Source: an uncultured Arenicella sp.
Lineage (GTDB): Bacteria; Pseudomonadota; Gammaproteobacteria; Arenicellales; Arenicellaceae
DNA length: 41,342 bases
Assembly: GCA_937922925.1 (NCBI GenBank)
Contig: CALAKU010000059.1
Location: forward strand, 1-41,342
Reading direction: 5' to 3'
Position numbers and translations under genes: made by a program. This document shows, in pieces, positions 1,021-24,500 of the stretch. How positions within the stretch are numbered: the first letter of the stretch is position 1; every line of letters starts with the position of its first letter. The notes under the pieces were generated by a model that worked only from the letters and a program-made list of their open reading frames with translations, searched no databases and was not told the DNA's origin.

Positions 1021-1905
1021 TTAATTCTCACCGCTTCGAACAATACCAACAACACCAAACTCGCCAATAACCGAGTTCTTAAACTGTGAGTCTCGACGTA
1101 CTCTGGTGTTGGGCAGCACAATACAGTTTTTCATAGATACCCCCGGTTCAATAAAGCAATTCTTATTGAGAATCACATCGTGCAGAACGCCACCTCGTTG
1201 CACCACGGTATCGCCCTCAATAAACAACTGGCCTTGGCGTTTGACCGAGTGATGTAAATGGGAATGGCGATGCTGTATTAACGTCGATATCTTATTATCC
1301 CTTGCTTTAATCCTGGGTAACAAACCTCTGAATTTTCCGTTAAGCACCTCAAAGTTTGTTTTATGAAAAGCAGTGACGGACGTTTGCTTGGCGGTACGAA
1401 CACCATCTAATTCGATTTGATTCAAATTTTCTTTCGTCGCGTTAGGTACTTTAACTAAAGTTAGCCCTACTCTTTCGCCATTGGCAACCGCTTCAATTAG
1501 TCCGTTTTGCTCTTGATAAGCTCTATTTAAGAACGCTTGAATGGAGTGGCTTCGAAGGCGATGTGATTCAATAATCAGCAAACCACTCTCAGCGGCTAAG
1601 CCTGCAAAATTCATTAGCACTTCGTCTTTAGTCAATTGATAGTTAAATGCCTCTATGGTCATTCGCGTGTCCCAACGAAAGACATTTAATAACGACTTAT
1701 AAAGAAAGGGCGCTTTATCATCGCTAAGCAGCAATACTGTCTGAGTTCCAATGCTGGCTAATTCATCGACAATATGATTCACCATGGGTTTGCCCGCATA
1801 GAGCCAGTTCAGCTGCCCGCCCGCATCGATGAGGCTTGCACCTTCATCAAATGTCATCGAATCAAGAATGATGACATTGGGCGCTTTTAGTTGAGTTTCT
1901 TTCAT
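1021..1905 (-). CDS. Nucleotidyltransferase-like protein with left-handed beta-helix end
   Basis: The 294-aa product resembles NDP-sugar pyrophosphorylases. An N-terminal Rossmann-type region carries LYAGKPMVNHIVDELASIG, matching the usual 'aGkPmi-hiid-l-x-G' segment. The C-terminal 70 residues have hexapeptide-like turns (VVQRGGVLHDVILNKNCFIE, then an IVLPNTRV stretch). The usual GxGTR nucleotide-binding signature is not recognisable at the N-terminus, so activity is uncertain. I chose the ATG at 1905: the longer frame to 2169 would overlap the upstream gene by about 240 bp and encodes an unconvincing extension. It lies 25 bp behind the WecG/sugar-transferase fusion on the same strand, so an activated-sugar supply role for the same polymer is likely. 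A regulatory or inactive paralogue is also possible. Confidence 0.7.
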   Translation of the reverse strand: MKETQLKAPNVIILDSMTFDEGASLIDAGGQLNWLYAGKPMVNHIVDELASIGTQTVLLLSDDKAPFLYKSLLNVFRWDTRMTIEAFNYQLTKDEVLMNFAGLAAESGLLIIESHRLRSHSIQAFLNRAYQEQNGLIEAVANGERVGLTLVKVPNATKENLNQIELDGVRTAKQTSVTAFHKTNFEVLNGKFRGLLPRIKARDNKISTLIQHRHSHLHHSVKRQGQLFIEGDTVVQRGGVLHDVILNKNCFIEPGVSMKNCIVLPNTRVRRDSQFKNSVIGEFGVVGIVRSGEN

Positions 1906-1930
1906 TTTAATGACCGGTTTAGAATAAGGT

Positions 1931-3394
1931 TTAGTAAGCACCGCGAGCGAAAATAACCGCCGGGATGGTCTTGAGGAGAATCCTAATATCCTTGAAAAGG
2001 GATTTTTGGCGAATGTAATCAATATCCAATTCGACTTGTTTCTCAAAAGGGATATCAGAGCGCCCAGACACTTGCCATATACAGGTGATCCCGGGCCGAC
2101 TTTGAAGTCGGTAGTTGTGCCGAGCATGGTATTGTGCGATCTCGCTCGGCAATGGTGGCCGCGGCCCAACTAAACTCATATCGCCCTTAACCACGTTCCA
2201 TAATTGTGGTAATTCGTCGATTGAAAACGTACGAATAAAACGGCCAATTGGCGTGATTCTTGGATCTCTTTTTATTTTAAAAATCACTCCGTCTCCCGAT
2301 TCGTTTTGCGCGGTTAGCGCCGCCCTACGCTGTTCTGCATCGATGTACATGGATCGGAACTTATACATCGTAAATGGCTTACCGTTTTTGCCAACTCTGG
2401 TTTGATGAAACAAGACAGCACCCGGTGACTCCAGCCTGATCAAGGCTGCAACACAAACCAGAAAAGGTGAAATCACAAGCAGAATTGAACTCGAAACGAA
2501 ACAATCAAAGACCCGTTTCACGTAGGCAGAGAGCCGACAACGATGCGACCAATATAGCGTTTTTAAGGAGCGTTTTAGTGCAACCACTTTGTTTAAAGGT
2601 TGGCGCTTACCGTGCCTGAGAGCTCGTATCAAAAACAAAGGATTCCCAACAAGGTAGCGCCTGGCTTTATCTTTGGGTTGCACCAGTAAGCGCCACACCC
2701 ATTCCAATGACCGGTCACGCATCCATTTTGGGGCTCGCGACACCTTGCCTGAATAAAAGTCGAATAAGCCACCAACACCAACAATCAGTTTAGGATTAAG
2801 TTGATTTGCGTATTGCGCAATCCATTTCTCTTGCATAGGAGCGCCAAACGCAACAAAAAGTATATTAGCTTGGCTTTTGTTTATCTGATCAATAATGCTT
2901 TGCGCTTGATCCGAATTAAAATAGCCATGCTGTGCGCCGACCACACTTAAGGCGGGATTTTGTCGCTCAAGGCGATCGGCAACGTTTTGGGCAACCCCCG
3001 GCTTACCTCCTAATAAAAAGACCCGACTCTCTTCTTGCGCCATTCGCTGTATTAACAGTGGGAATAGATCGGTCCCATTGACATTGTCAATGAACTCCTC
3101 GTCTTGAAAATGCGCCGCAATGCGCATCCCCACTCCATCTGCGTATTTAAATTCGAAGTTATCCAACGCCAATCGATATTCGACATCCTCGAAAAGCCGG
3201 TTGACACAGTCAGCGTTCAAAAACGCCACTCGTCTTTGAACCTGTCCGAGGTTGTTCATTAGCGAGTCAACAGCTTGGGCTTTAGTTTGATTGAGCAAAG
3301 ATTGACCAAACAGAGTGATGTTTTGTCTAGCACCAAAGCAGATGCGCGGATCAAAAAAATCGCGAGCAGAGGAGTTAACCATTTCTTTTATCAC
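1931..3394 (-). CDS. WecG/TagA glycosyltransferase fused to undecaprenyl-P sugar phosphotransferase
   Basis: This 487-aa protein combines two steps of polysaccharide initiation. Residues about 25-260 are a WecG/TagA/CpsF glycosyltransferase: NADCVN (60-65), ADGVGM (85-90), NGTDLFP (106-112), FVAFGAPMQEKW (180-191), and the GLFDFYSGKVSRAPKWMRD region (209-227). Residues about 290-480 are a bacterial sugar transferase: KRVFD, a single hydrophobic segment (about 299-319), YKFRSMY (344-350), then the SIDELPQLWNV (391-401) and SLVGPRPPLP (407-416) motifs. The C-terminal half should load the first sugar phosphate onto undecaprenyl phosphate at the inner membrane, and the N-terminal half should add the next sugar. 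The start is a GTG with AGGAG seven bases upstream. It diverges from wza across an AT-rich regulatory region. Confidence 0.93.
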   Translation of the reverse strand: MIKEMVNSSARDFFDPRICFGARQNITLFGQSLLNQTKAQAVDSLMNNLGQVQRRVAFLNADCVNRLFEDVEYRLALDNFEFKYADGVGMRIAAHFQDEEFIDNVNGTDLFPLLIQRMAQEESRVFLLGGKPGVAQNVADRLERQNPALSVVGAQHGYFNSDQAQSIIDQINKSQANILFVAFGAPMQEKWIAQYANQLNPKLIVGVGGLFDFYSGKVSRAPKWMRDRSLEWVWRLLVQPKDKARRYLVGNPLFLIRALRHGKRQPLNKVVALKRSLKTLYWSHRCRLSAYVKRVFDCFVSSSILLVISPFLVCVAALIRLESPGAVLFHQTRVGKNGKPFTMYKFRSMYIDAEQRRAALTAQNESGDGVIFKIKRDPRITPIGRFIRTFSIDELPQLWNVVKGDMSLVGPRPPLPSEIAQYHARHNYRLQSRPGITCIWQVSGRSDIPFEKQVELDIDYIRQKSLFKDIRILLKTIPAVIFARGAY

Positions 3395-3609
3395 TTGTGA
3401 GCTCCTAGTAATTTGTGTTCATGTATCAGTTTCAAAAATTATATTGATAATAATGATATTTTCAATAGATTTTTCACTCAATGAAGAGAATTAATGATAA
3501 TAAATGTTAAATTAGGAGATTTTATTGATAATTATGGAAATTAATAGTGGAACTCCATTAACGACATCATTATTATATTGATAATTATGATAATTAGTGA
3601 GTGACCGCA
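3395..3609. promoter_or_regulatory. Divergent promoter region with TGATAAT direct repeats
   Basis: Five exact TGATAAT heptamers on the plus strand start at 3445, 3495, 3526, 3579 and 3588. The last two are 9 bp apart. Those at 3445 and 3526 are followed exactly 9 bp later by variants (TGATATT at 3454, TGGAAAT at 3535). The same motif, again with 9-bp spacing, precedes the HTH-receiver gene at 13728. The array separates the wza transcription unit from the WecG-fusion unit, so a protein bound there could control both. The motif resembles a -10 box, so some copies may be promoter elements instead. Confidence 0.6.
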
Positions 3610-4797
3610 ATGAAACGTATTTGCATCTTCTTGAGCATTATTTTTATATCGGCTTGCCAAGTTGTTCCGAAACACCTGGATGACCGCGGCCAAGACTTGA
3701 ACGGCGCATTTACGCGCATTGTTGTTGCTGAAGATCAAGAGCGCCGGCTCGTTGGTCAAACGCATAAGCTGCTTCGCCGCTGGTGGGCCGACGCCCCCAT
3801 TCAGCCCATCAGCGCATTATTTGAAGAATCTGTTTTACAAGCTGGCGATTTACTAGAACTCAAAAGCGCGGCACTCAAAGTGCTCAACGGTCGATATCAG
3901 GTCAATCAAAGCGGCGCGATTGAGGTTCCCTATCTTGGCGCCATCAAAGTCTCAGAATTTTCCTTAAGTCAAGCAAAGCACTATTTATTAGCCCAATTGA
4001 CTCATCAGGGTTGGCTGAATGAAGCATCGAGCCATTTACACCTAAGTGTGGTCGAAAAAGGCTCTATTCGCGTGCATGTGGCGGGCGCGATATTCAACCA
4101 AGGCGATGTTGTGCTCGGCCTTAAACCAACCCAATTACCCGCCCCAACAGTACGTCAAGACTATGGCACTTTTGATCGACAAAGAAGCTTTGCCACGGCC
4201 ATTCAAAGCGCTGGTGGAGTGCGGCCAGATGCAGACCTTTCCGAAGTTTATTTAAAGCGCAATGAACAGGTTTTTAAGGTCAATTTAAGCGCCTATCTCT
4301 CGGGACATGCGAAACACGCCATACCGGATTTGCTTGATGGAGATCATATCTATGTCGGTTCAACTGGTTTCCAACAAAGCGACCTTATTCGCCCGACGCC
4401 CCTGACGCCGCCCGGCATTCGAGTTTTTATGTCTAACCTCACGGCACCGGCTCTAAATAATTCATTGTCAGCGGTGGGTAGTGACTCAACACGCCTGCCT
4501 TATGGAGTGAGTTTAATTGATGTCGCCATATCTGCGAATTGCATTGGTGGCACGCAAATGGCTAATGCGTCTCGCAGCATTCTTTTGATTACTAAGAACT
4601 TTGGCTCGCAAAGACAACTTGTTGTTAGCCGAAGAATCGATGACCTATTGGCCCAGTCGTCGAATTCTTTAGTCAACCCGTTCATCATGCCTAACGACGC
4701 AATCGCCTGTTACGACTCGCGTTTCACCAACTTCAGAGATGTCGCTCGAGGCCTAGGCGAGCTCATTAGCCCGTTCATCCTTGGTCGTTTACTCTAA
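3610..4797 (+). CDS. wza: Wza-type polysaccharide export outer-membrane lipoprotein
   Basis: The 395-aa lipoprotein has an N-terminal signal ending in lipobox I-S-A-C (Cys16), which places it in the outer membrane. Residues about 70-145 form the polysaccharide export domain, with VLQAGDLLELK and later GAIEVPYLGAIKVSEFS. An SLBB-type segment follows (about 150-250, SIRVHVAGAIFNQGDV to DGDHIYVG). The family makes the octameric pore through which capsule or exopolysaccharide leaves the cell. I prefer the ATG at 3610 over the GTG at 3601 because it puts the charged KR directly before the signal core. It heads a four-gene plus-strand unit with the Wzz-like gene 18 bp downstream. The closest TGATAAT site ends only 15 bp before the start. 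Confidence 0.92.
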   Translation: MKRICIFLSIIFISACQVVPKHLDDRGQDLNGAFTRIVVAEDQERRLVGQTHKLLRRWWADAPIQPISALFEESVLQAGDLLELKSAALKVLNGRYQVNQSGAIEVPYLGAIKVSEFSLSQAKHYLLAQLTHQGWLNEASSHLHLSVVEKGSIRVHVAGAIFNQGDVVLGLKPTQLPAPTVRQDYGTFDRQRSFATAIQSAGGVRPDADLSEVYLKRNEQVFKVNLSAYLSGHAKHAIPDLLDGDHIYVGSTGFQQSDLIRPTPLTPPGIRVFMSNLTAPALNNSLSAVGSDSTRLPYGVSLIDVAISANCIGGTQMANASRSILLITKNFGSQRQLVVSRRIDDLLAQSSNSLVNPFIMPNDAIACYDSRFTNFRDVARGLGELISPFILGRLL

Positions 4798-4815
4798 CGC
4801 CGGTGGAGCATCAAC

Positions 4816-6225
4816 ATGATTTCATTCACTCAAATGCGCCACTTGTTTAAAGAGGCGTTATTACAAACATGGCGCCGCGCGCTACTCAGCGCAACCTGTA
4901 CGCTGATTGTTTTCGCGCTCATAATTTGGCAAACGCCAACGATGTATAAAACGTCGTGGGTCTTATTATTGCCCGGCACAGAACGCAGCGCGACAGTCAG
5001 CCTAGACGAGATCGGAGAAGCGAGAACCACAAGTCGCAATGCCTACGGCAATGTCTCGATTAGCCCAAAGCACACCTACAAAGAAATCGCGCTTAGCTCA
5101 AAAGTACTCAATCAAGCGGCAATCGATTTCGGTGTACCCAAAGGCAGTTTCAGCAAACCAACGATCAAATTGGTGCAGCAAACGCCCGCCATGCGCTTTT
5201 CGCTCAAGGGCGACAGCATCGACGAATTACGCACTCGGGCACAGTTATTTCACAGCACATTCATGACCGCCTTGGATGAACTACGCCGCAATGAAATCGA
5301 TCGCCAAGAACAGGGCGTTCAAACGCAACTTAAGTCAGCCAAACAACGGTTAGCAACCACTCAAAAAGCAATCGTTCGCTTTCAAACCAGCAGCCAGGTA
5401 CTCAGCAAAGAAGACGTCAAAGTTAGGAGTGCGAATTTGCAACACTTACACCATGACCTTGCTCTTACCAAAGTAAAGCACGCACAGGCTTTGGCTCAGT
5501 ATGAGCATTTGTCAAATTTACTTGGCCTCAATTCAGAGCAAGCATCCATTATCAACGCGATGAGCTATCACCCAGAAATTCGCAGTTTGCTTAGCCATCT
5601 AGAAGAAAGTCATGCGCAACTCCTTGAACTTGAGGCCACCACTGGCCCCAACTACCCTGAACATCAACTGGCAAGGCAAACTTATACAGCTCTGAATTCA
5701 AACTTAAAAGAGCAAATTAGCGCACGCCCAAAACTCAAGACCGTTTCGAGCACTCGATTAGTCGATTTACTGAGCGCTCAGAATGTCATGACAATCAACA
5801 AACTCATTGATCAATCAACCTCCATTGAAGGATACAAGTCGTTGATCGATACACAAAAGGAGCAAATAGACATTTTGCAACAGGCGCTCAACACGCATCG
5901 CGAGCAGACCATGAAACTCGCTGAGCTGACTCGCGATCATCAAATTGCTGAAGCGATATTCAGCTCAGCATTGACAAAACTGGACAGTAATCGTTTTGAT
6001 ATTTACGCCTCGTATCCGCTTACACAACTGCTTTCTTTGCCAGGATCGAATATTCGCAAAGACCGATTTGCACTCAAGTTGCTCGTTGTCTGTGGCATTG
6101 CATTGAGCGCAATGACGGCGATATTAATCGTGCTTGTTCGCGTCCGTCATCTACAACTCAGACGGGTATCACAAGACCGGCCTTGCGAGCCATCCGATGA
6201 TAATGGAGGACGTAATGGCAAGTAA
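4816..6225 (+). CDS. Wzz-type chain-length/co-polymerase protein, no kinase domain
   Basis: The 469-aa inner-membrane protein has the typical polysaccharide co-polymerase layout: transmembrane segments near residues 21-40 and 422-441, and between them a large periplasmic region rich in predicted coiled coil (about 165-400, many K/E/Q heptads). The cytoplasmic tail is only about 28 residues, ending in GRNGK. It carries no Walker motifs and no tyrosine cluster, so it lacks the fused BY-kinase of many exopolysaccharide systems. It would set chain length and bridge the polymerase to Wza. A good ribosome site (GGTGGAG) lies 7 bp before the ATG. Its last 11 bases overlap the next gene. Confidence 0.82.
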   Translation: MISFTQMRHLFKEALLQTWRRALLSATCTLIVFALIIWQTPTMYKTSWVLLLPGTERSATVSLDEIGEARTTSRNAYGNVSISPKHTYKEIALSSKVLNQAAIDFGVPKGSFSKPTIKLVQQTPAMRFSLKGDSIDELRTRAQLFHSTFMTALDELRRNEIDRQEQGVQTQLKSAKQRLATTQKAIVRFQTSSQVLSKEDVKVRSANLQHLHHDLALTKVKHAQALAQYEHLSNLLGLNSEQASIINAMSYHPEIRSLLSHLEESHAQLLELEATTGPNYPEHQLARQTYTALNSNLKEQISARPKLKTVSSTRLVDLLSAQNVMTINKLIDQSTSIEGYKSLIDTQKEQIDILQQALNTHREQTMKLAELTRDHQIAEAIFSSALTKLDSNRFDIYASYPLTQLLSLPGSNIRKDRFALKLLVVCGIALSAMTAILIVLVRVRHLQLRRVSQDRPCEPSDDNGGRNGK

Positions 6226-7525
6226 AAACAAACTTGAGGTTGGTGAGTTAATGCAGTCAGGCTATGGCACCGAATCAAATTGGGTCTTCTGGGCAATATC
6301 GATGACGTTTCCAGCTTACTTTTTGGGCGCACTGTATTTGATCGCACCGATTCTTGGCTGGCTAGTTGCGCTTGCCCTAGTTCAGCGTTGTTTCTTTGAA
6401 CCACATCGACTGCAAGCTCCTCAATCGATGTGGGCAAACAGTCTCTTACTTTTATGGGTCTTTGGCTCTCTCGGGCTTTTGGTCGCCTTAATTGTTGGCC
6501 ATGCTCATTTTGATCTTGGGTTAGGTAAAACCATCAAATCCATTATAGGCTGGGCCAAAGGCTGGGCACTCATTGGAGTTTTTATTCTCATTGGGGTTTT
6601 CAGCCACATACCGATTAGAGCGATCGTGCGAGCGGCTTGTATTGTTGGTACTTGTGCGCTCGCGTTGAGCCCCTTGTTAATTGTGGCCTATCTACTTGGC
6701 TTACCGGGCGACCTCTATGTTTCGCCACTCAAAGCCTTTGGCGGCTCGGGCCCAGAATTTTTTACGGTTATCTTGTACGAAATTGACCCCGGAAACGGCA
6801 ACCCTCGATGGCGTTTTTTCGCCCCGTGGGCGCCCGCCGTTGGCTTTGTTGCTAACCTCTACTTTATATGCTGCCTATACGAGCACGACAACCGCTGGAA
6901 ATGGCTGGGCTTAACTGGCAATGCTCTGATGATTGTTTTATCGGCGTCTCGAATGGGGCTCATCGTCTTAACACTAATCCCTTGCATCGTCTTTTTTACC
7001 GGGCGACTCAGTCGCGTCTCCACATGGCTCTTGGCCATTGTGTTAACCATTGTCTTTGCTTTATTTCACGATGTAATACTCGATAGCGCTGATCAACTGA
7101 TCACTCAAATAAAAGAATCAAGAACCGACTCCACTCGCGTGCGAGCCGCACTGAATGATATGGCCTTCTCACGCTGGCAAACCGAGGCCTATTGGTTTGG
7201 CCACGGCGTAGTCGAAAATGGCAGTCACTTCGTTGAATTTATGCCCATTGGCTCACATCACAATTGGTATGGCCTGCTCTTTGTTAAGGGTTTGGTTGGC
7301 TTGCTCTCGTTCGCCCTTCCGTTTTTGATCACGGGATGGGTTTTGTTCATCGGCTCCAATTTAAGTATCACGGCAAAAATCGCCTTTGGCCATTTTCTGG
7401 TACTCAGTTGTTTTTCTCTCAGTGAAAACATCGAAGCCTTGGCTTATTTGACTTGGCCAGCCTGGCTAATGATCGGCATTGCCGTTCGAAAACTCTCGCT
7501 GTCAAACCCAACCCAATTGCGCTAG
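6215..7525 (+). CDS. O-antigen polymerase/ligase family membrane protein (Wzy/WaaL-like)
   Basis: The 436-aa protein is almost entirely hydrophobic, with about ten membrane segments. A large loop near its C-terminal third contains GHGVVENGS and then HHNWYG. A histidine-asparagine pair before a glycine-rich helix is typical of the O-antigen ligase/polymerase superfamily. In a cluster with Wza, Wzz-like and Wzx-like proteins, a Wzy role (periplasmic joining of repeat units) is more likely than lipid A ligation, but sequence alone does not decide. I chose the ATG at 6215 because GGAGGA lies 4 bp before it; upstream in-frame starts lie deeper in the preceding gene. The 11-bp overlap suggests translational coupling. 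Confidence 0.8.
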   Translation: MASKNKLEVGELMQSGYGTESNWVFWAISMTFPAYFLGALYLIAPILGWLVALALVQRCFFEPHRLQAPQSMWANSLLLLWVFGSLGLLVALIVGHAHFDLGLGKTIKSIIGWAKGWALIGVFILIGVFSHIPIRAIVRAACIVGTCALALSPLLIVAYLLGLPGDLYVSPLKAFGGSGPEFFTVILYEIDPGNGNPRWRFFAPWAPAVGFVANLYFICCLYEHDNRWKWLGLTGNALMIVLSASRMGLIVLTLIPCIVFFTGRLSRVSTWLLAIVLTIVFALFHDVILDSADQLITQIKESRTDSTRVRAALNDMAFSRWQTEAYWFGHGVVENGSHFVEFMPIGSHHNWYGLLFVKGLVGLLSFALPFLITGWVLFIGSNLSITAKIAFGHFLVLSCFSLSENIEALAYLTWPAWLMIGIAVRKLSLSNPTQLR

Positions 7526-7542
7526 TTAAACGGTTAAGTGCT

Positions 7543-8469
7543 ATGAAAATCAGTGTTGTTATTCCGATGTACAACAAAGCATCGACCATCCATCGCGCTA
7601 TTGAATCGGTGTTAGAACAAAGCCTGAAACCGCATCAACTTATTGTTATCGATGATGGTTCTACTGATCACGGCGCAGAGCTTGTCGCAACCCTTTTTGC
7701 AGGCTTATCAGCGCATATAAGGGCTCGATGCCAACTCGTTAAAACCCGGAACCAAGGCGTGTCGGCTGCCCGCAATACAGGGATTGGTCTGTCGCAGTCC
7801 GATCATATTGCCTTACTTGATGCCGACGACCGCTGGCAAACCGGGCACCTTGCGTCACTGGCTACACTGATTGAGCGCCATCCATTTTCTAGTGCATGGG
7901 TCACCGCCTATCGCTTTGTCGACGCCGATGGTCATTTAGTTCGCAATGCCCGTTGGGCAAGCACACTTAAAGACCAAAGCATGGGCACGTTTGATTGCTA
8001 TTTCAAATATGCAGCACGCGGAGACTTACCGATCAGCGCCTCTTCAATTTGCTTAAACAAAGCCATCTTCGAACAGTGCGGCGGGTTCCCCATTGAGCAA
8101 GCCATGGGCGAAGACCAATGGCTTTGGTCGAAACTCGCTTTGCACGGCAATATCGCCTACGTCAATTCAGTAACCAGCGAGTACTTTTTGCACAGCGACA
8201 ACTCATTGATGGATGGCCCTGCTCCAGGTCATGAACTTCCCTATAGCGTGATGTTACAGAAGCTAATCGATTCAAATTACATTCAAGATGGGCGCAAACC
8301 GGCCGTGCGTCATTATATTCGCACCCATCTCTATGACTTAGTTCGACGTAATTTTCAACAGGGAAAGACAGACACCGTGGCTCGGCTTCTTAGCGATTCA
8401 AGGCTCCACTTTGGCCAGCTTAAATTTACTTACTGGCATTTGCGCTTGCTGCTCGCTCGGTTGAATTAA
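7543..8469 (+). CDS. Family 2 glycosyltransferase
   Basis: The 308-aa cytoplasmic enzyme has a GT-A fold: SVVIPMYNKASTI at the N-terminus, IDDGSTD (36-42), NQGVSAARNTGIG (70-82) and the metal-binding D-A-D (93-95). The later GEDQWLW matches the acceptor-side ED motif. It would add one sugar to the lipid-linked repeat unit. The ATG at 7543 begins the conserved fold exactly; an upstream frame adds 30 residues that overlap the preceding gene. It is the last gene of the wza unit and faces the convergent GT2 gene 122 bp away. No clear terminator lies in that gap, only an imperfect hairpin near 8554-8577. Confidence 0.9.
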   Translation: MKISVVIPMYNKASTIHRAIESVLEQSLKPHQLIVIDDGSTDHGAELVATLFAGLSAHIRARCQLVKTRNQGVSAARNTGIGLSQSDHIALLDADDRWQTGHLASLATLIERHPFSSAWVTAYRFVDADGHLVRNARWASTLKDQSMGTFDCYFKYAARGDLPISASSICLNKAIFEQCGGFPIEQAMGEDQWLWSKLALHGNIAYVNSVTSEYFLHSDNSLMDGPAPGHELPYSVMLQKLIDSNYIQDGRKPAVRHYIRTHLYDLVRRNFQQGKTDTVARLLSDSRLHFGQLKFTYWHLRLLLARLN

Positions 8470-8591
8470 ATCGCAAGAAAACTCTCTAGTATTAAAAACC
8501 TGAGTCGATGTTCCTAGTCGAACTCATTCGCTTTCATGGTTGCAATAAAAAGAAGAGTAAGCGGGCCTTGCTCACTCAGACAGATAGCGTC

Positions 8592-9575
8592 TCAGATAAA
8601 GGTCTGAATAATACGTTGTTGGATTTTACTTGGTAGCACACAAAGCGAGAGTGTCGCGATTAATGTTGATATTGATCGCGCTGGCTCGCGCCAGATAATG
8701 CTCCAATCGGCTTTAAATGCTTTCTTTAGTAAATCCAATGCATTGAGCGCATTGCCCTCGAGCAATAGTCTGCGCGCTAAATATCGGTATTGATAAGCCT
8801 TAGCCAATTCGCCATAGCGCTTGGCAAAATCCGGATGAGCTGACGCCACTTTTTCATAGACCCTTAGCCAGCTGTTGAATTGCTTTTCAACATTGGCCGA
8901 CAAGCCCCCGCTATTTAGGCGATAGTAAGTTAAGCCTTGATCAAGATAGGCAAAACGGCAGTCGGTTTGAAGCACGAGTCGTATCCAGCAATCAATGTCT
9001 TCTGACTGACGCAAAGACTCATCAAAATATTGCAACCACGGCTTGCCGTCGCTTTGAAAGGCTATTTGATCCAGCACAGACCGCCGTATGACCGGGGTTG
9101 ATCCGTTACCGATTGGGTTTCGACAAAAAATTCGAGGTGCCGAAAAGTCGACCTTATTAATTGGCTCCTGACGCCGATTGAGCCGCTGACCTAGTTCATC
9201 AATCAGCTCGGAAGCTGAAAAACTCAAGCCAATTTCAGGATCATTTACTAATTGTTGAACGTGTCGTTCAAGCTTTTCGGGATGCCAAAAATCGTCTGAA
9301 TCCAAGAACGCCAGTATTTCCCCTTTAGCATGCCGAATGCCCGTATTTCGCGCACCAGAAAGGCCGCGATTCTCTTGCGTCACCACTTTTATTCGCGCGT
9401 CATTAAATTCTTTGACTCGGTTAATGGAATCATCAGGGCTCTGATCATCCACAACAATGACTTCAAATCGCGAATAGGACTGTTTGAGCACCGAATCAAT
9501 ACACACCTGAATATAAGGCTCCACGTTGTAGACCGGAATGATAACGCTGACCAAGTACGGCATCGGATCGTTCAT
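8592..9575 (-). CDS. Family 2 glycosyltransferase
   Basis: The 327-aa enzyme has SVIIPVYNVEPYI, VVDDQSPDDS (41-50), ENRGLSGARNTGI (68-80) and the D-S-D metal site (92-94). SEDIDCWIRL fits the downstream ED motif. The C-terminal 100 residues are helical, with LARRLLLEGNALNALDLLKKA resembling a TPR-like helix pair seen in some exopolysaccharide GT2 proteins. It closes the minus-strand operon that begins with the HTH-receiver regulator, 12 bp behind the flippase. It probably transfers a sugar of the same polymer whose export genes lie to the left. Confidence 0.9.
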   Translation of the reverse strand: MNDPMPYLVSVIIPVYNVEPYIQVCIDSVLKQSYSRFEVIVVDDQSPDDSINRVKEFNDARIKVVTQENRGLSGARNTGIRHAKGEILAFLDSDDFWHPEKLERHVQQLVNDPEIGLSFSASELIDELGQRLNRRQEPINKVDFSAPRIFCRNPIGNGSTPVIRRSVLDQIAFQSDGKPWLQYFDESLRQSEDIDCWIRLVLQTDCRFAYLDQGLTYYRLNSGGLSANVEKQFNSWLRVYEKVASAHPDFAKRYGELAKAYQYRYLARRLLLEGNALNALDLLKKAFKADWSIIWREPARSISTLIATLSLCVLPSKIQQRIIQTFI

Positions 9576-9587
9576 CTATCTAACCAC

Positions 9588-10883
9588 CTAATGCGCAAGC
9601 GCCTTCGAACCTGCAGGCTTAGCTTGGTCAAATTCGCCTGGTTTTAGATCGGTGGCCATGTTTGCAAACACTTGACGATACATAAAAGTGGCATACATTG
9701 GTTGTGCTACGGAATAAATCAATACAACGGCGATCGCAACGCCTAGGAGGCTCCAGTGAGCACCAAGAACCACCGCCACTATGAACAATAAAGTGAATAA
9801 ACTATTCCAAATTAAGTCGCTGCGAATATGGCCAGTTGCGTGCGCCAGAGTGGACGAGCACTCTCCAAGCGGCCTTAATAAAGCCGATAGACAAAGCAAA
9901 GATAAAACCGGTATTGCACTCTCCCATTGCTCGCCAAATACGAGCGGCACATACCAAGGCGCTAACAGCGCTTGAGCTAAAATCAAGGGCGCGGTGATCA
10001 TGCTGGCTTTGAGTAAATTCGAATTAAAACGGGCTTTGAGCCCCACCAAATTATCTTTGACTCGGCACAAATTAGGATACATGGCACTGGTCACTGCGTT
10101 CACCAAACTCAAACTAAAACCAAGGCCGGCATTACGAGCGAAGTAATACAAACCTAAGGCTTCGACGCCAAGTAAGGAGGCAATCAGCAAATTGTCGACG
10201 TTCAAACGAGCGGTTTTGAGTAATTCGATGCCAAGATAGAACCGGCTAAAATCGAATACCTCTCTAAATTTATTAAATGACCAGAGTGGTCTAATTGACT
10301 CCCAGTGAACAGCGCGCCGATACCCTATTACCCAAATCGGAGCCACCAATAATTTTGGCAATACAATTGCCCACGCACCTAGGCCACCGATGGCGAGCGC
10401 TGCAGTTAGGAGATTATCCACACCCACTTGCGAGCCTTCGATCAAGGCCTTGGTTTTAAAGTCTTCATTGCGTTGCACTAAAGCACTTTGCACAAAAGCA
10501 AATGGCATAATCAAGTAAACCAAGGCCAGAGTTTGCAACATTACTGCGAGCTCAGGGTTGTTGTAAAACTGAGCGATCGGGTTGGCCAAGGCCACTTGTG
10601 CCGCAAATAAAATCCCACAGACCAAAAAGCCAACTCGATAAGAGGTTTCTAGCACGTCTTCGAGCTCATCCTCAGAACATTGCACAATTTTGGCGGCAAC
10701 CCCATTGCGATTAAAGACATGAACAAGCTCGTTAATGGTTAGTACCAGCGCCGCGATACCAAAAGTCAGTGGATCAAGAACCCGGGCAAGCACGACCGCA
10801 GTCAATAAGCGAGTAAGTCTTACAAAGGCTTCGCTACCTCCGAGCCACGCCACGTTCCGCAAAAAGAGATGTTTCGCTGTCAT
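9588..10883 (-). CDS. Wzx-type lipid-linked oligosaccharide flippase
   Basis: The 431-aa polytopic protein of the MOP (MATE/polysaccharide flippase) superfamily has about twelve membrane helices. The N-terminal signature FLRNVAWLGGSEAFVRLTRL and VLARVLDPLTFGIAAL match the WzxC/exopolysaccharide flippase group. It would move undecaprenyl-linked repeat units across the inner membrane, after the WecG/PNPT fusion and GT2 enzymes build them. Its ATG shares one base with the stop codon of the histidine kinase (TAATG). The flippase is thus translationally coupled to the sensor operon, direct evidence that signalling and polymer assembly are expressed together. Confidence 0.92.
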   Translation of the reverse strand: MTAKHLFLRNVAWLGGSEAFVRLTRLLTAVVLARVLDPLTFGIAALVLTINELVHVFNRNGVAAKIVQCSEDELEDVLETSYRVGFLVCGILFAAQVALANPIAQFYNNPELAVMLQTLALVYLIMPFAFVQSALVQRNEDFKTKALIEGSQVGVDNLLTAALAIGGLGAWAIVLPKLLVAPIWVIGYRRAVHWESIRPLWSFNKFREVFDFSRFYLGIELLKTARLNVDNLLIASLLGVEALGLYYFARNAGLGFSLSLVNAVTSAMYPNLCRVKDNLVGLKARFNSNLLKASMITAPLILAQALLAPWYVPLVFGEQWESAIPVLSLLCLSALLRPLGECSSTLAHATGHIRSDLIWNSLFTLLFIVAVVLGAHWSLLGVAIAVVLIYSVAQPMYATFMYRQVFANMATDLKPGEFDQAKPAGSKALAH

Positions 10884-12583
10884 TATTCACCCAGCGCGAG
10901 GTCGAATTCATTTTTAAGCTCGCTGAATCTGGCGTTGATTGACGCTAATGCATCGTACGCAGTCTCTGGTGCAAGCTCGATGTCCGCAAAGCAATCAGCC
11001 AAGCGTGCTAACCCCATGCTTGCACAGGCCCCTTTTAACGAATGACTTAATTTTTTGATCGTGTGAAATTCATCTGCTTTAGCCGCTTCGCCAAGGCGTT
11101 GAATTTCCGACGCACTGTGGTCAAGAAAAACGGGCGCCATTTGCGCAAAAACTGTTTTAGCAGAATCCCCAAACTGGCTCGAGAAGAAAGACCAATCCAA
11201 CTCATTGGTCTGCTCGGTTTTGATCGACACCTGGCCTCGCACAAAGTCTTTGCTCGCCACGATCATTTCTAGTGCGTTACGCAAATCATCGAGTAACAAC
11301 GGCTTACTCAAAAATTGGTCGAAACCCAATTCAAGCAATTGCTCGCGTTTCTGATAATAGCTGGTGGCCGTAATGGCAACGCATGGCAAATCATCCCGAA
11401 TTTTGCTTGACTGGCGAATAGCTAGCAGAGTTTGTTCTCCATCTAAGACCGGCATTTGAATGTCAAGCAACACCGCATCGTAATGGTCGCCAGCCGTCAA
11501 TGTGTCGAGCGCCAACTGGCCGTTATCAACAATCTCTGGATGCAATCCAAGTTGTGAAAATTGAGCCAAGAGCACATTTTGATTAACGGGGTTATCCTCA
11601 GCAATCAAAACCTTGAGACCACTCAAATCAACACGATCACTTACCTTATTCACGGCTGCAGGGGCTTCAGCGGTGGCCAAAGGAAGTTCGAACACAAATT
11701 CACTGCCTTGCTTTACACCAGCAGCACAATAAATTACCCCGCCCATGGCCGCACAAAGTTGTTTACAAATCGCCAGGCCTAAGCCAACACCCTGACTTAA
11801 ATTTCCAAATTGTTCATAGGCCTTAAAAATTTTAGAGATTTGATCTTCTTTGATCCCGCACCCAGTATCGATTACAGATGTCTTAAGCACGCCGTTGGCG
11901 TATTCGAGGCGCACTTTAATAAAGCCTTGTTGTGTGTTCTTAAACGCATTACCAATCAAATTGGTTAGAATTTGCGCATAGCGCGCTTCGTCCATCTCAA
12001 GATATTCAGGCACGTTGTTTGCGAGGTGCACTTGCAGCTCTAGGTCTTTTTGTTTTGATTCATGCCAAAACATATTAATTTGCCTTTCGATGACCTTATC
12101 TACTCGGACTGGGGTTGGGGCAATACTGATTTTCCCAGCCTCCATTTTGGAAATATCAAGCACGCTATTTATCAACTTAGCTAAGGAACTGGCACTAGAA
12201 AAGATCGTTTCTATGTGTGCTCGTTGCGCCGAAGGCAGTTGTGAATCAAGCAACAATTCAGATAAACCGATCACCGCGTTCAACGGCGTTCTGATTTCAT
12301 GGCTCACAGCACCGATAAACGTCGATTTTTCTTCCAACGCTTTCTTGAGTCGGCGATTGGAGGCTTGCAGCTCATAAGTAGCTTGATCAATTTCTGTGCG
12401 AAGATGATCACGGCTCGCTTGGAGCGCTTGATTGGAAGCATAAAGCTCGTTAGCTTTTTCCTCGAGTAAACGTTCTGCGGTGTCTCGTGCTTTTTTAAAA
12501 CGCTGCGCTCTTTGCTCAGCTAGGCTTAGCTTGCGCTCGAACTCTTGTTGCGTACCACCATCTTTTTTTGCCCCCTCAGACAT
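10883..12583 (-). CDS. Soluble hybrid histidine kinase (HisKA-HATPase-REC-Hpt)
   Basis: The 566-aa protein lacks any membrane segment or recognisable input domain. Residues about 12-90 are coiled coil. HisKA follows with SHEIRTPLN (phospho-His95). Next comes the ATPase domain, with N box near NLIGNAFKNT (208-217), G1 DTGCGI (239-244) and G2 GVGLGL (265-270). The receiver (about 322-440) has phospho-acceptor D374 in LLDIQMP and K427. The C-terminal Hpt has HSLKGACASMG (His514). This is a complete internal phosphorelay that could pass phosphate to the HTH-receiver protein two genes upstream. With no sensor of its own and an H-NOX gene 3 bp upstream, it fits H-NOX-associated kinases whose activity is set by binding heme protein. 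Confidence 0.93.
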   Translation of the reverse strand: MSEGAKKDGGTQQEFERKLSLAEQRAQRFKKARDTAERLLEEKANELYASNQALQASRDHLRTEIDQATYELQASNRRLKKALEEKSTFIGAVSHEIRTPLNAVIGLSELLLDSQLPSAQRAHIETIFSSASSLAKLINSVLDISKMEAGKISIAPTPVRVDKVIERQINMFWHESKQKDLELQVHLANNVPEYLEMDEARYAQILTNLIGNAFKNTQQGFIKVRLEYANGVLKTSVIDTGCGIKEDQISKIFKAYEQFGNLSQGVGLGLAICKQLCAAMGGVIYCAAGVKQGSEFVFELPLATAEAPAAVNKVSDRVDLSGLKVLIAEDNPVNQNVLLAQFSQLGLHPEIVDNGQLALDTLTAGDHYDAVLLDIQMPVLDGEQTLLAIRQSSKIRDDLPCVAITATSYYQKREQLLELGFDQFLSKPLLLDDLRNALEMIVASKDFVRGQVSIKTEQTNELDWSFFSSQFGDSAKTVFAQMAPVFLDHSASEIQRLGEAAKADEFHTIKKLSHSLKGACASMGLARLADCFADIELAPETAYDALASINARFSELKNEFDLALGE

Positions 12584-12586
12584 ACG

Positions 12587-13123
12587 CTAACTCATTCTAA
12601 TTTTGAAGTTAGCTGAACATTGGTCGTCCGCAACGGTGGTTTCTATCAAGGTTTCACCACGGCCAAAATGTTTGATACAAGCTTTCGTTAACGCCAGGGC
12701 AACACCCGCTAAAGGGCGCGGCGAGCTATACTCCAAGGTTAACAACTTATCGTCGCTCACCGCTGTGAACTTAGGCAGCTCTGCGTCTGGGTAGAGCTTT
12801 TTAACTTCAACGTGGATGTGAGAGTCGAGATTTAGAAGCATGTCGGCCGCGCAATCAGCCGACTCGAAAAAGCCGGCGTAATTTTCAGAAAACATACTCA
12901 TCAGATGATCCGCAAATCCATCCAGCAGTTCTTCGGCTGGTGTATTCAATGACGATGCCGATTCAATCAATAAAGAGATTAATTCTTGATAGTCGTATAA
13001 CCCTACTCTTGAGTAGGCTCCCTGCGATTCTAAGTTAGCGCGATTTATAATTTCTTGAGTCTGATCAGGCGACCCCTGTGACTCTAAATAATCAATAAAC
13101 TCGACAAATAAAATACCTTTCAT
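12587..13123 (-). CDS. H-NOX family heme gas sensor (NO/O2)
   Basis: The 178-aa protein matches the length of stand-alone H-NOX domains. It starts with the family's MKGILFVEFI. It has GAYSRVGLYDYQEL (35-48), a proximal heme histidine candidate H104 in IHVEVKKLYP (H102 is adjacent), and the Y-x-S-x-R heme-propionate motif at Y132, S134 and R136. Stand-alone bacterial H-NOX proteins bind NO through heme and inhibit or release a partner histidine kinase. Its ATG overlaps the regulator's stop by 4 bp and the kinase starts 3 bp after its stop, so the three are coupled. Whether it also binds O2 depends on a distal-pocket tyrosine that I cannot place with certainty. Confidence 0.9.
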   Translation of the reverse strand: MKGILFVEFIDYLESQGSPDQTQEIINRANLESQGAYSRVGLYDYQELISLLIESASSLNTPAEELLDGFADHLMSMFSENYAGFFESADCAADMLLNLDSHIHVEVKKLYPDAELPKFTAVSDDKLLTLEYSSPRPLAGVALALTKACIKHFGRGETLIETTVADDQCSANFKIRMS

Positions 13124-13728
13124 TGCGATGCGCCCCCCGCGCCATGCAGATTTAACTTATCCAGCACGAGCGATTTCAATTGTTGCACATCGACAGGCTT
13201 GTTGAAAAAAGTAACGCCCGCCGGAATGCCACCTCGATCATTAATTTCTTGCTCATCCAGACCACTGATCACAATCAATTTTGCGGCTTCGATCAAATTC
13301 CCTTTGTACAGGGACTGAATCATTTGCAGCCCATCCATGCCCGGCATGTAGATGTCCGATATGATCAGATCCGGCTTTTGCTCTCCAATCATAACCAACC
13401 CCTGAAACCCATCCTCGGCGGAGACCACGTCGATATCCAAGGCCCAAGAATCGATGGCCGCCTTATAGAAAAGACTTACCGTTGGATTGTCTTCAACCAC
13501 CAGTATTCGATGGCCTTTTGACTTGGTTGCGTGACTAGGCGGCAAGTAATCGGGGTTTTGCTCTTGCATCTTAGCGTGCACAGACTCAGCGCGGATACGT
13601 CGATGTCCCCCAGCCGTTTTCCAAGCGTCTAATGCGCCATTTTCAACCCAAAGCTGAATAGTTCTGACCGAGGTTCCCAATAACTTTGCAGCCTCAACTG
13701 TCGTAAAAAAGGATTTGTCTTGACCCAT
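13120..13728 (-). CDS. BldC/MerR-type HTH fused to a C-terminal receiver domain
   Basis: The 202-aa regulator has reversed order compared with usual response regulators. Residues 8-50 are a MerR/BldC-like winged helix: TVEAAKLLGTSVRTIQLWV, then AGGHRRI (39-45). A short linker leads to a receiver (about 74-193) with E79/D80, phospho-acceptor D125 in ISDIYMPGMDG, S155 and K177. The single-domain helix-turn-helix type binds AT-rich direct repeats as head-to-tail oligomers in Streptomyces BldC. It heads the operon containing H-NOX, kinase, flippase and GT2, so it is the natural phosphorelay output. Its own promoter contains the 9-bp-spaced TGATAAT repeats, which suggests autoregulation. No strong ribosome site is visible before the ATG. 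Confidence 0.88.
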   Translation of the reverse strand: MGQDKSFFTTVEAAKLLGTSVRTIQLWVENGALDAWKTAGGHRRIRAESVHAKMQEQNPDYLPPSHATKSKGHRILVVEDNPTVSLFYKAAIDSWALDIDVVSAEDGFQGLVMIGEQKPDLIISDIYMPGMDGLQMIQSLYKGNLIEAAKLIVISGLDEQEINDRGGIPAGVTFFNKPVDVQQLKSLVLDKLNLHGAGGASQ

Positions 13729-13752
13729 AATATGATTTCGTTTTCTTAGAAT

Positions 13753-13783
13753 ATTATCAATATTATCATAATATAATGATAAT
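13753..13783. promoter_or_regulatory. TGATAAT repeats upstream of the regulator operon
   Basis: ATTATCA (TGATAAT on the minus strand) occurs at 13753-13759 and 13762-13768, exactly 9 bp apart. One TGATAAT in the opposite sense lies at 13777-13783. Together with the second copy it gives an inverted repeat ATTATCAT/ATGATAAT around AATATA. The array ends about 25 bp before the regulator's start codon. It shares both heptamer and spacing with the wza/WecG promoter region. Confidence 0.6.
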
Positions 13784-13942: not shown

Positions 13943-14398
13943 TGTTGTACAAAGAGTCTGTTCGGGCTCAACAGAACACTATCTTCCAGTTCTTTTGATG
14001 AAGAAAACTTCGGTCGATCTGTTGCCCTCATCGGTGATCTATTGTTTGTTGGCGCATCAGACTTTGACCGTTTATCCGATGGACAAGACTGCGTAGCTAC
14101 CGCAAGTTGTGGCCGAGTTTATGTGTTTCAGTTAAGAGAAGGCGAGTGGCAACAGATAACTATTTTGGAGCGCCCGAACCTCGACCAAGAACAAGTATCG
14201 TCATTTGGCCAAAGCCTGGCGGTGGATGAAGACACACTGATGGTTGGCGCGCCGCGCGATTCGTTTTTCTCCCCTGATGGAATAGAGTTCGGGCGTGCGT
14301 TTTCTTACGATGTTGAAGCGAATGCACCCGATCTAATCGAGCAATCGTGCTTTGTGGTAAAAGTCGCTAGTGGCTCAGTGGTGAGCTTCTGTTTGTGA
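13943..14398 (+). pseudogene. Remnant of an FG-GAP (integrin-like) repeat protein
   Basis: The open frame from 13943 encodes two blade-like FG-GAP repeats. One is ENFGRSVALIGDLLFVGASD (about 14003-14062) and the second, SFGQSLAVDEDTLMVGAPRD, lies near 14198-14260. No in-frame ATG precedes the first repeat: the frame opens right after a TGA at 13940. The protein stops after about 150 residues, whereas such beta-propellers normally have seven repeats and a signal peptide. An ATG frame at 13857-14096 is in another register and may be the broken 5' part. This is therefore a decayed surface or adhesin-type gene, lying just outside the regulator operon. Confidence 0.6.
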
Positions 14399-16375: not shown

Positions 16376-17377
16376 TTAACTAAAAAGGCGGGAAAAGAAA
16401 CTCTTCTTCTTGGCTTCTTTTTCGATGGTTTGAGCATGCGAAACCGAAATTTTATTGCGCCGATAATGCTCTTGATCCCATGTTGTTTTATCTGAGAACT
16501 TTAAATCTGGGAACTCGCTGAGCGCGAATTTTTTATTTAGACCTGTCGCGATCAGGTTAGCCGCCTTAACGTTAGCCTGAGTAAATTGGCTGCCCGAAAC
16601 AAACGCCGACGAAAGATTGCACGCCTCAAGGCTCGAATGACTGAGGTCAGCACGGCTCAAGCGACTATTTGATAAATTTGCACCGTTAAAATCCGCGTTG
16701 CTAAGCTGAGCCCCTGCCATAATGCTTGACCGCAAATTAGCGGTTTCAAAATTGCTTTCGCGCAAATCGGCCTGGCTTAAATCGGCGCTAAACAAACTGG
16801 CAGATTTTAGATCGGCATTGCGCAGTTTGGCATTACGCAAACGCGCTGCTCCCAGATCGGTTGATCGCAAATTCGCCCCATTTAGATTCACGCTTTGCAA
16901 CTTAGCACCAAAGAGTTTGGCGCCTACAAATTTCGCATGGCTTAAATTCGCCTTAGCGAACATTGCTCCGGTCAAGATGGCCTCGCTAAAGTCAGCTTCG
17001 GTCAAGTCGCAATCACTGAAGTCAACGCCGACGAGGTTTGCCTTGGTAAATACGCATTGAGAAAGAGTCGATGAGGTTAAATCGGCGGCGGAAACAATGG
17101 CGTCTCGAAAATCAGCGCCAGATGCATCGACATGCGATAAAGTCGCCCCTGTTAATCTGGCACCTGCCAATTTGGCTTTGTATAAATCCGCACCGGAAAG
17201 ATTAGCACCAGAGAGATCCGCTTCGCTCAGGTCGGCACCAGACAAATCAGCCCCGGCTAGATTCGCACCACGTAATTTCGCTTGAGAAAGCTGCGCGCCC
17301 GCTAAATCGCTGCCCATCAAACTATAGCCTGATAGATCGTAACCGGACAATTTTTTTACCGAATTGGCCTTACTCAT
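16376..17377 (-). CDS. Pentapeptide-repeat protein
   Basis: The 333-aa protein is made of about 50 tandem pentapeptides of the A(D/N)LxX type from residue 10 to 280 (for example GANLAGADLSGADLSEADLS), which fold as a right-handed quadrilateral beta-helix. There is no signal peptide or membrane segment. The C-terminal 50 residues are outside the repeat, charged, and end in KSFFSRLFS. Some pentapeptide proteins mimic DNA and protect gyrase (Qnr, MfpA); others have no known role. Here neither context nor sequence supports a specific function. It is a single-gene minus-strand unit. The strong codon repetition creates long antisense frames that are not genes. Confidence 0.88.
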   Translation of the reverse strand: MSKANSVKKLSGYDLSGYSLMGSDLAGAQLSQAKLRGANLAGADLSGADLSEADLSGANLSGADLYKAKLAGARLTGATLSHVDASGADFRDAIVSAADLTSSTLSQCVFTKANLVGVDFSDCDLTEADFSEAILTGAMFAKANLSHAKFVGAKLFGAKLQSVNLNGANLRSTDLGAARLRNAKLRNADLKSASLFSADLSQADLRESNFETANLRSSIMAGAQLSNADFNGANLSNSRLSRADLSHSSLEACNLSSAFVSGSQFTQANVKAANLIATGLNKKFALSEFPDLKFSDKTTWDQEHYRRNKISVSHAQTIEKEAKKKSFFSRLFS

Positions 17378-24371: not shown

Positions 24372-24500
24372 CTGAGTCCTCAAAAAGTTAATTGAAGTTA
24401 GAAAGTCTGGATTTTTGCGGATTTTATAGCGATGCTTGTGAGAACCTTGTTGATATATCAATCTGTGTTTTGGGTTCAGCTAACCTAGATTAGACTCAAT

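Follow-up and report, generated by a model that had tools for sequence, protein, structure and literature searches.

Among described H-NOX signaling systems, two come closest to the locus that we report here: the hno network of Shewanella oneidensis (HnoK, HnoB, HnoC, and HnoD) and the HnoX-HahK pathway of Vibrio fischeri. Our locus lies in a 41,342-nucleotide stretch of DNA from an uncultured Arenicella species (contig CALAKU010000059.1), which we call the window; it is one complete contig of a 2.69-Mb draft genome with a completeness of 87.6%. In the window, genes for a DNA-binding response regulator, a predicted heme-NO/O2 binding (H-NOX) protein, and a hybrid histidine kinase are in one run with genes for a flippase and a glycosyltransferase (GT), beside other genes for exopolysaccharide assembly. 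We consider it likely that these genes form a nitric oxide (NO)-responsive phosphorelay that is built into a Wzx/Wzy exopolysaccharide locus and that controls polymer transcription directly, probably by derepression.

By its description, the S. oneidensis network resembles this locus in that the response regulator of an H-NOX pathway is a transcription factor (PMC8738867). In S. oneidensis, however, HnoB, an EAL protein, and HnoD, a degenerate HD-GYP protein, also convey output (PMC6335343), whereas we found no EAL or GGDEF protein here. Two other differences are that the kinase here bears its own receiver (REC) and Hpt domains, and that the predicted sites for the regulator here include polymer promoters. 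In V. fischeri, as proposed here, an H-NOX-controlled kinase acts on transcription of a polysaccharide locus via an Hpt step, but the signal goes through a separate protein, SypF or LuxU, to SypG and so onto syp (PMC12369376). In Arenicella, the sensor, the Hpt-bearing kinase, and the regulator are in one run with wzx and a GT gene, and the regulator joins a BldC-type helix-turn-helix to a receiver (HTH-REC). A relay of the V. fischeri type, through SypF or LuxU to SypG, does not describe this locus: the regulator is an HTH_17-REC protein and the kinase has its own Hpt domain. (SypG is a sigma-54 activator. A REC-sigma54 activator does adjoin H-NOX in another genome, G230, unlike the HTH_17-REC protein of Arenicella.) V. 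harveyi and V. parahaemolyticus (HqsK) also have an H-NOX-regulated kinase, which feeds the phosphotransfer protein LuxU (PMC8738867); the output there is quorum sensing, not a linked polymer locus. With a DNA-binding response regulator encoded together with H-NOX and its kinase, the Arenicella system resembles the HnoC type.

So precedents exist both for this type of regulator and for a polysaccharide locus under H-NOX control. What is apparently new is that both are united in one run with polymer genes, with shared predicted operators, in genomes where c-di-GMP enzymes are nearly absent. An initial reading of the window from its sequence alone (the sequence-only reading) had named no described H-NOX system in which the flippase is translationally coupled to the kinase. 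As a claim of no precedent this has to be narrowed, as the transcription factor HnoC (PMC8738867) and the action of HnoX-HahK on syp (PMC12369376) show, but we did not find the built-in arrangement with the flippase described. Our survey of the H-NOX literature, which covered titles and abstract openings of the open-access articles listed and is a weak negative, gave no account of the arrangement, and the open-access literature on Arenicella concerned ecology only.

A predicted sensor run within a Wzx/Wzy locus

The sequence-only reading had described five minus-strand genes that overlap or lie 3-12 bp apart, and both the open reading frame (ORF) calls and the domain matches agree: successive genes are separated by -4, +3, -1, and +12 bp. 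The first gene (13120..13728) encodes an HnoC-like response regulator with an N-terminal BldC/MerR-type winged HTH and a C-terminal receiver (Pfam families HTH_17, MerR, and Response_reg, and alignment). Then come the predicted H-NOX gene (12587..13123; HNOB, E = 1.1e-27, with PDB matches and invariant residues), a hybrid kinase with the domains HisKA-HATPase_c-REC-Hpt (10883..12583; from Pfam, invariant residues, and hydropathy), a Wzx-type flippase (9588..10883; Polysacc_synt_3, E = 2.3e-52, with an NCBIfam MOP flippase match that is under its cut-off), and finally a GT2 glycosyltransferase (8592..9575; Glycos_transf_2, E = 9.8e-39). Past the GT2 gene is a weak terminator-like hairpin (8555..8577, minus strand); the consensus scan found 1 versus 0.3 expected.

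The other polymer genes are as the sequence-only reading had named them, but it had left their orientation unstated. The wza-wzz-wzy-GT2a set (3601-8469) is on the plus strand and converges on the five-gene run. It encodes a Wza-type outer-membrane polysaccharide exporter (3601..4797; Poly_export, E = 1.4e-7, above the cut-off, and SLBB_2, under it), a Wzz/Wzc-type chain-length co-polymerase without a kinase domain (4816..6225), a Wzy-type polymerase (6203..7525), and a second GT2 glycosyltransferase, GT2a, whose start we set from the alignment (7543..8469; Glycos_transf_2, E = 7.4e-29). The co-polymerase has no Pfam match and two predicted transmembrane segments; the best fold match of its predicted model is the Wzc of a Wza-Wzc complex (E = 1.6e-4), with a TM-score of just 0.34 and amid coiled-coil proteins. 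The polymerase has no Pfam match and seven predicted transmembrane segments; its model, of low confidence (mean pLDDT 62), best matches the O-antigen ligase WaaL (7tpg; probability 1.00, E = 6.7e-3). On the minus strand, divergent from wza, are a WecG/TagA glycosyltransferase fused to a polyprenyl-phosphate sugar transferase (PNPT) (1931..3394; Glyco_tran_WecG, E = 1.2e-58; Bac_transf, E = 7.6e-67) and a left-handed beta-helix protein whose start codon is uncertain (1021..2169; LbH_EIF2B, E = 1.1e-6, under the cut-off). Homologues of the beta-helix protein adjoin the sugar transferase gene in relatives.

Because the wza set is on the plus strand and convergent, and the WecG-PNPT gene is divergent from wza, the locus comprises at least three transcription units and is not a single operon. 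Together, the genes make a complete set for the Wzx/Wzy-dependent pathway (the initiating PNPT, Wzx, Wzy, co-polymerase, and Wza), with Wzy and the co-polymerase assigned by topology, conservation, and weak fold matches.

The polymer genes vary among relatives. WecG and PNPT are one fused ORF here, and a separate PNPT gene (224 amino acids in six of them) is beside the WecG gene in the 7 relatives listed; the WecG gene of G010 has an additional PNPT-like stretch. Sulfotransferases are in the polymer clusters of G015, G008, and G009, and Pfam found none among this window's polymer genes. The sulfotransferases suggest that some Arenicella species may make a sulfated polymer.

Residues of the sensor, kinase, and regulator

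The H-NOX protein matches HNOB with 97.4 bits, against a family cut-off of 25.5. Its best PDB match is 6bdd (E = 1.7e-30), which is named otherwise there; 6ocv and 4u99, which their depositors call heme-NO binding, are also among the matches. The predicted proximal heme histidine (H102) and the Y-x-S-x-R motif (Y132, S134, and R136) are present and, like P117, are invariant in 14 sequences.

For the kinase, Pfam shows no sensor domain and hydropathy no membrane segment (its sole hydrophobic stretch sits in the ATPase domain). A soluble kinase that has no sensor domain of its own would fit with H-NOX being its sensor. H95, D374, and H514 of the kinase are invariant in 13 sequences, and D125 and most of the HTH of HnoC are invariant in 14. 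As these four residues are invariant, all the sites of a four-step relay are present.

The best PDB sequence matches of the HTH are structures of BldC (6amk and 6ama; E = 1.4e-4 and 2.6e-4), and the segment T38-A-G-G-H-R-R-I45 is invariant in 14 sequences.

Conservation in Arenicella

We then asked how widely this arrangement is found. The sequence-only reading had proposed a search for the same gene order in other genomes, and the order HTH-REC, H-NOX, HisKA-HATPase-REC-Hpt kinase, Wzx, and GT2 does recur, both in Arenicella and in one genome of another family (G034). Because it is kept at just 38-63% protein identity, the order reflects more than chance. In genomes with the polymer locus, the run extends as far as the contigs do, with gaps of -17 to +52 bp (starts were estimated). 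Translational coupling between kinase and flippase, which had been put forward as distinctive, is not conserved as such: the 1-base overlap is specific to this genome and the gap in relatives ranges from -7 to +52 bp (again with estimated starts), so we ruled out the overlap itself as a conserved feature. The close packing is conserved.

Among 109 genomes of the order Arenicellales, 15 have HnoC: 14 of the 18 Arenicella genomes and G034. H-NOX was found in 13 of the 18 genus genomes, in none of 3 others of the family, and in 3 of 40 others of the order. (The apparent lack of H-NOX in G010 is not a real absence, as its contigs break inside the kinase and inside hnoC.) Wzy was found in 13 of the 18 genus genomes, and all 13 also have hnoC. 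Across the genus, 13 genomes have both hnoC and the polymer locus, one has hnoC only, none has the polymer locus only, and four have neither (Fisher's P = 0.0016, with relatedness ignored). In a tree of FadB-like proteins from 8 genus genomes, G012, which lacks hnoC, groups with the locus-bearing G007 and G008; the remainder of the tree is unresolved.

A 9-bp direct repeat at the hnoC and polymer promoters

The upstream regions of hnoC and the gap between wza and wecG have in common a TGATAAnnATGATA-like 9-bp direct repeat, which we propose as the HnoC operator. In the window, the proposed operator 5' of hnoC is ATGATAATATTGATAATA, a direct repeat of period 9 (13752..13769, minus strand). It scores 23.8 with a position weight matrix (PWM) built from 14 hnoC-upstream sites, of which it is one, and 21-22 (22.1) when left out. 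Another proposed operator is in the divergent wecG/wza gap (3444..3461, plus strand; PWM 19.5), and two overlapping ones are beside the wza start (3569..3595, plus strand; PWM 13.0 and 18.3).

Several lines of evidence link the two sets of repeats. First, TGATA-N4-TGATA, with at most one mismatch, is upstream of hnoC in 14 of 14 genomes (13 from the genus, and G034), and some 40 to 80 bp separate the nearest copy from the first aligned codon. An exact pattern search then recovered a fifteenth hnoC, in G010. The repeat is also in the wza-wecG region in all 12 cases first examined and in G010, or 13 of 13. (The region in G016 is beyond its contig, and the contig of G014 stops before wecG. Regions were bounded by tblastn hits, so that in relatives part of the wecG N-terminus is included.) Copies oriented to wza are present in 12 of 12 regions and further copies oriented to wecG in 10 of 12. 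Among 50 sites with at most one mismatch in the 13 regions, 45 are outside any ORF of at least 150 amino acids, and each region has at least one such site.

Second, when we scored the wza/wecG regions with the hnoC-derived PWM, excluding the genome's own site, the best site exceeded 200 of 200 dinucleotide shuffles in all 13 regions. The narrowest margin is for this window's gap (19.6 versus a shuffle maximum of 19.0), and in G034 the best site falls inside an ORF, if that ORF is taken to begin at its first start codon. In cluster loci that total 327,846 bases (with some overlap), nearly all sites scoring at least 14 are in hnoC-upstream or wza/wecG regions. The exceptions are one inside wza of G002, two weak sites about 65-200 bp farther upstream of hnoC in G010, four in the gap upstream of PNPT in G011 (likewise a polymer gene), and one in G034, where the copy is upstream of a phage-baseplate-like gene (5029-6819 of L018, minus strand) with a phage-baseplate/type VI secretion OB domain.

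Third, a search of the 18 whole genus genomes gave 69 matches to the exact pattern TGATAAWWNTGATA versus 8 to the reversed control, and 38 of the 69 are in cluster gaps: 14 upstream of hnoC, 20 in wza/wecG, 2 in the G011 gap, and 2 in wza/wecG of G010. For the stricter TGATAAWWATGATA, we counted 39 matches in the 14 hnoC-bearing genus genomes, 2 in the 4 that lack the gene, 2 in G034, and 10 in 42 other genomes (none in G018, one of the 42); its control has 5 in all 61. We reject the idea that the repeat is mere AT-rich sequence, as shuffled versions of these regions score lower and the reversed pattern has far fewer matches genome-wide. We do not claim a wider HnoC regulon: when we inspected 19 of the 31 matches outside the cluster gaps, 13 were inside an ORF (one recurs in a gene that by eye is DUF423-like) and 6 were outside, among them the copies before an oxidoreductase-like gene that are described below.

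The repeat and HTH-REC proteins outside the genus

Next, we considered homologues of the HTH-REC protein from beyond the genus and G034. We kept the best 80 of 394, which gave 66 loci of 4-21 kb each; these proteins are 37-49% identical to HnoC and are mostly from Betaproteobacteria by title. None of the 66 loci has a tblastn hit (E < 1e-8) to the cluster's Wzx, GTs, Wza, Wzz, Wzy, or PNPT-WecG within the 4-21 kb examined, and three have an H-NOX match. Nevertheless, the Arenicella matrix finds a site scoring at least 12 upstream of 17 of 65 homologues (we excluded L108, whose match begins at the contig edge). Shuffles gave a mean of 1.3 and a maximum of 5. For other ORFs from the same loci, 6 of 1,173 upstream stretches have a site, but these stretches often overlap coding sequence, so the shuffles are the fairer control. 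Because some of the outside homologues carry the repeat upstream without polymer genes, we take the repeat to go with the HTH-REC protein and not with the polymer genes.

In six of these loci (L094, L096, L099, L104, L122, and L153, from Beta- and Gammaproteobacteria other than Arenicella), HTH-REC genes have near-identical TGATAAAAATGATA-type repeats in their own upstream regions.

The repeat also recalls BldC of Streptomyces, the best solved match to the HTH. The subunits of BldC line up head to tail on 9-bp direct-repeat sites (PMC5859096); the candidate sites here are direct repeats of period 9. But BldC has 68 residues and no receiver, unlike the regulator here, and its consensus is AATTXXXX(C) (PMC5859096). 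The repeats at hnoC and wza/wecG differ from that consensus.

Few GGDEF or EAL proteins in the genus

The absence of GGDEF and EAL proteins, first noted for the window, extends to the whole draft genome as searched: at 87.6% completeness it has no match to either domain (HD-GYP and PilZ were not searched). In 16 of the 18 genus genomes, there is neither a GGDEF nor an EAL match. The exceptions are G011, with three GGDEF and two EAL matches, and G015, with one weak GGDEF match. As a control, the same search found GGDEF in 8 and EAL in 6 of 14 control genomes. EAL is found in 24 of 43 other genomes of the order, with up to 21 matches (one in G034). H-NOX signaling through a GGDEF or EAL partner has no candidate partner in this draft genome; HD-GYP was outside the search.

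Proposed circuit and its sign

On this basis, we propose the following circuit. Without NO, the soluble hybrid kinase would autophosphorylate H95, and the phosphate would pass to D374, to H514 of the Hpt domain, and on to D125 of HnoC. Unphosphorylated HnoC would bind the TGATAAnnATGATA-like repeats over the core promoters and so repress its own operon (hnoC-hnoX-kinase-wzx-GT2), wza-wzz-wzy-GT2, and wecG/PNPT; phosphorylated HnoC would be released from the repeats. NO-bound H-NOX would inhibit the kinase, and polymer synthesis would be shut down. NO as the ligand, the contact between H-NOX and the kinase, the phosphate path, HnoC as the repeat binder, and the sign (HnoC a repressor, NO lowering polymer) are all inferred. 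The wiring from H-NOX through the kinase to a DNA-binding regulator that acts directly on polysaccharide genes was already part of the sequence-only reading, and it is now supported by the shared operator-like repeats, by the co-occurrence of the regulator and the polymer locus, and by the 16 of 18 genomes with neither GGDEF nor EAL.

Two considerations favor this sign. First, a -35-like TTGA precedes the repeat, starting 7 to 12 bases before it, in 7 of 14 hnoC and 7 of 13 wza regions, versus about 1.1 and 0.6 in shuffles. Because this sequence immediately precedes the repeat in roughly half of the promoters, the repeat would occupy a likely core-promoter position there, which favors repression without proving it. 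(When we scanned the window for promoters, the overlapping promoter-like matches were little above chance.) Second, HnoC of S. oneidensis is a repressor that is relieved by phosphorylation (PMC8738867), and in V. fischeri, HnoX inhibits HahK and NO lowers biofilm via HnoX (PMC12369376).

Several observations weigh against the proposed circuit. In G013, hnoC (followed by a 158-bp gap), hnoX, and the kinase are present without polymer genes, and G018, from a sister genus, has homologues of Wzx and Wzy (42% identity) without H-NOX or HnoC. Physical linkage by itself makes joint presence or absence likely, and the assemblies are drafts (for G034, completeness is 75% and contamination 4%). Of the 69 exact motif matches in the genus, 31 are outside the cluster gaps, and two of these are 5' of the same oxidoreductase-like gene (named by eye) in G007 and in G012, which lacks hnoC; perhaps another regulator has a similar site. 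(L065 of G007 and L184 of G012 have an identical TGATAAATATGATA before this gene.) Outside the genus, 48 of the 65 HTH-REC homologues have no site at a score of 12, and among the 17 sites, 11 are oriented to the gene but 6 are oriented away. The lack of EAL is not special to the genus: EAL is without a match in 19 of 43 genomes elsewhere in the order, too. And in S. oneidensis, NO raises biofilm (PMC6335343).

This last point bears on the strongest rival, which keeps the wiring but reverses the sign: phosphorylated HnoC would activate, or NO would stimulate the output, so that NO would raise polymer as a shield. MerR-type proteins often activate from inside the promoter spacer, and several copies of the repeat per region, in both directions, would permit one-sided activation. 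NO also induces biofilm in some other species (PMC6335343). But the placement of the repeat after the -35-like TTGA speaks for a repressor, and S. oneidensis HnoC is one and lowers biofilm moderately (PMC8738867; PMC6335343), while NO acting through HnoX lowers biofilm in V. fischeri (PMC12369376). We consider the reversed sign rather unlikely, although it is the rival that we take most seriously.

It seems quite improbable to us that HnoC governs its own operon alone, with the wza-wecG repeats belonging to another regulator and the linkage to the polymer genes being passive. G013, with two repeats and no polymer locus, would fit with this, as would the lack of such polymer genes in all 66 outside loci, in the stretches examined. 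But a PWM trained solely on hnoC promoters finds sites in 13 of 13 wza/wecG regions, wzx and a GT gene sit within the hnoC run, and G018, which has the polymer type and no hnoC, has no strict-motif match in its genome. We are equally doubtful that the H-NOX protein senses another ligand (O2, CO, redox, or heme supply) to which the locus would answer instead of NO: a conserved heme ligand and YxSxR motif do not by themselves reveal the ligand choice, but NO sensing is the described role of H-NOX proteins found next to histidine kinases (PMC8738867).

H-NOX and the polymer type across Gammaproteobacteria

To see whether this type of polymer accompanies H-NOX more broadly, we examined 369 genomes of the class (in the GTDB sense), scoring at most 4 Wzy candidates per genome. 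H-NOX is in 26 of these genomes and the cluster's Wzy family is in 7, all of which are among the 26 (hypergeometric P = 3.8e-9; by genus, 3 of 3 genera, P = 4e-4). In all 7, Wzy is within about 8 kb of H-NOX by coordinates.

Beyond the Arenicella arrangement, two others were found. In G230 (L206, 4690-10775), H-NOX is divergent from wza-wzz-wzy and a REC-sigma54-Fis regulator follows; a scan for sigma-54 promoters gave two near matches only. In G303 (L217) and G398 (L216), the neighbors of wza-wzz-wzy are two H-NOX genes, each paired with a hybrid kinase, along with a single REC and with Hpt as separate genes (one identified by Pfam, the others by eye). The other H-NOX loci that we fetched from outside the genus and G034 have no match to the cluster's polymer profiles.

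The neighborhood in G303 and G398 also has a small STAS-like protein (by eye), and Wza is fused to OmpA in G398. In G147 (L208, 2377-11766), two sulfotransferases and a Wzx-like protein are encoded within a few kb of an H-NOX gene and a hybrid kinase.

It appears that the response regulator has been swapped while the sensor and this polymer type have stayed together. We read the association as functional linkage; horizontal transfer of the block is possible. A broader reading, which strikes us as evenly balanced, would be a dedicated NO-to-exopolysaccharide module in Gammaproteobacteria. The Wzy/Wzz/Wza set would travel with H-NOX phosphorelays across families, with the regulator swapped: a BldC-type HTH-REC protein in Arenicella, a REC-sigma54 activator in G230, and a single REC with Hpt proteins in G303 and G398. 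In Arenicella, the module would replace c-di-GMP, and gas sensing would reach the polymer promoters in one phosphorelay via 9-bp direct repeats, an operator code common to the HTH-REC proteins of Betaproteobacteria.

Other features of the window

Between hnoC and nhaB is a short ORF (14042-14398, plus strand) that by eye resembles a remnant of a beta-propeller/FG-GAP-type protein. A pentapeptide-repeat protein of 333 amino acids is encoded at 16376-17377 (minus strand), and a Delta-class carbonic anhydrase at 23538-24461 (minus strand; CA_like, E = 4.5e-75). The Delta-class family is mainly known from algae.

Implications

Work on H-NOX explains the control of biofilm by NO largely through c-di-GMP enzymes. 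A genus that has H-NOX and matrix genes in one run, and whose genomes mostly show no GGDEF or EAL protein, sets the direct branch through transcription apart and opens it to testing. With the predicted operator come a concrete regulon, an assay in vitro, and a candidate binding code for BldC-type HTH-REC response regulators. It also suggests a way in which surface-living marine bacteria may decide on matrix production by NO.

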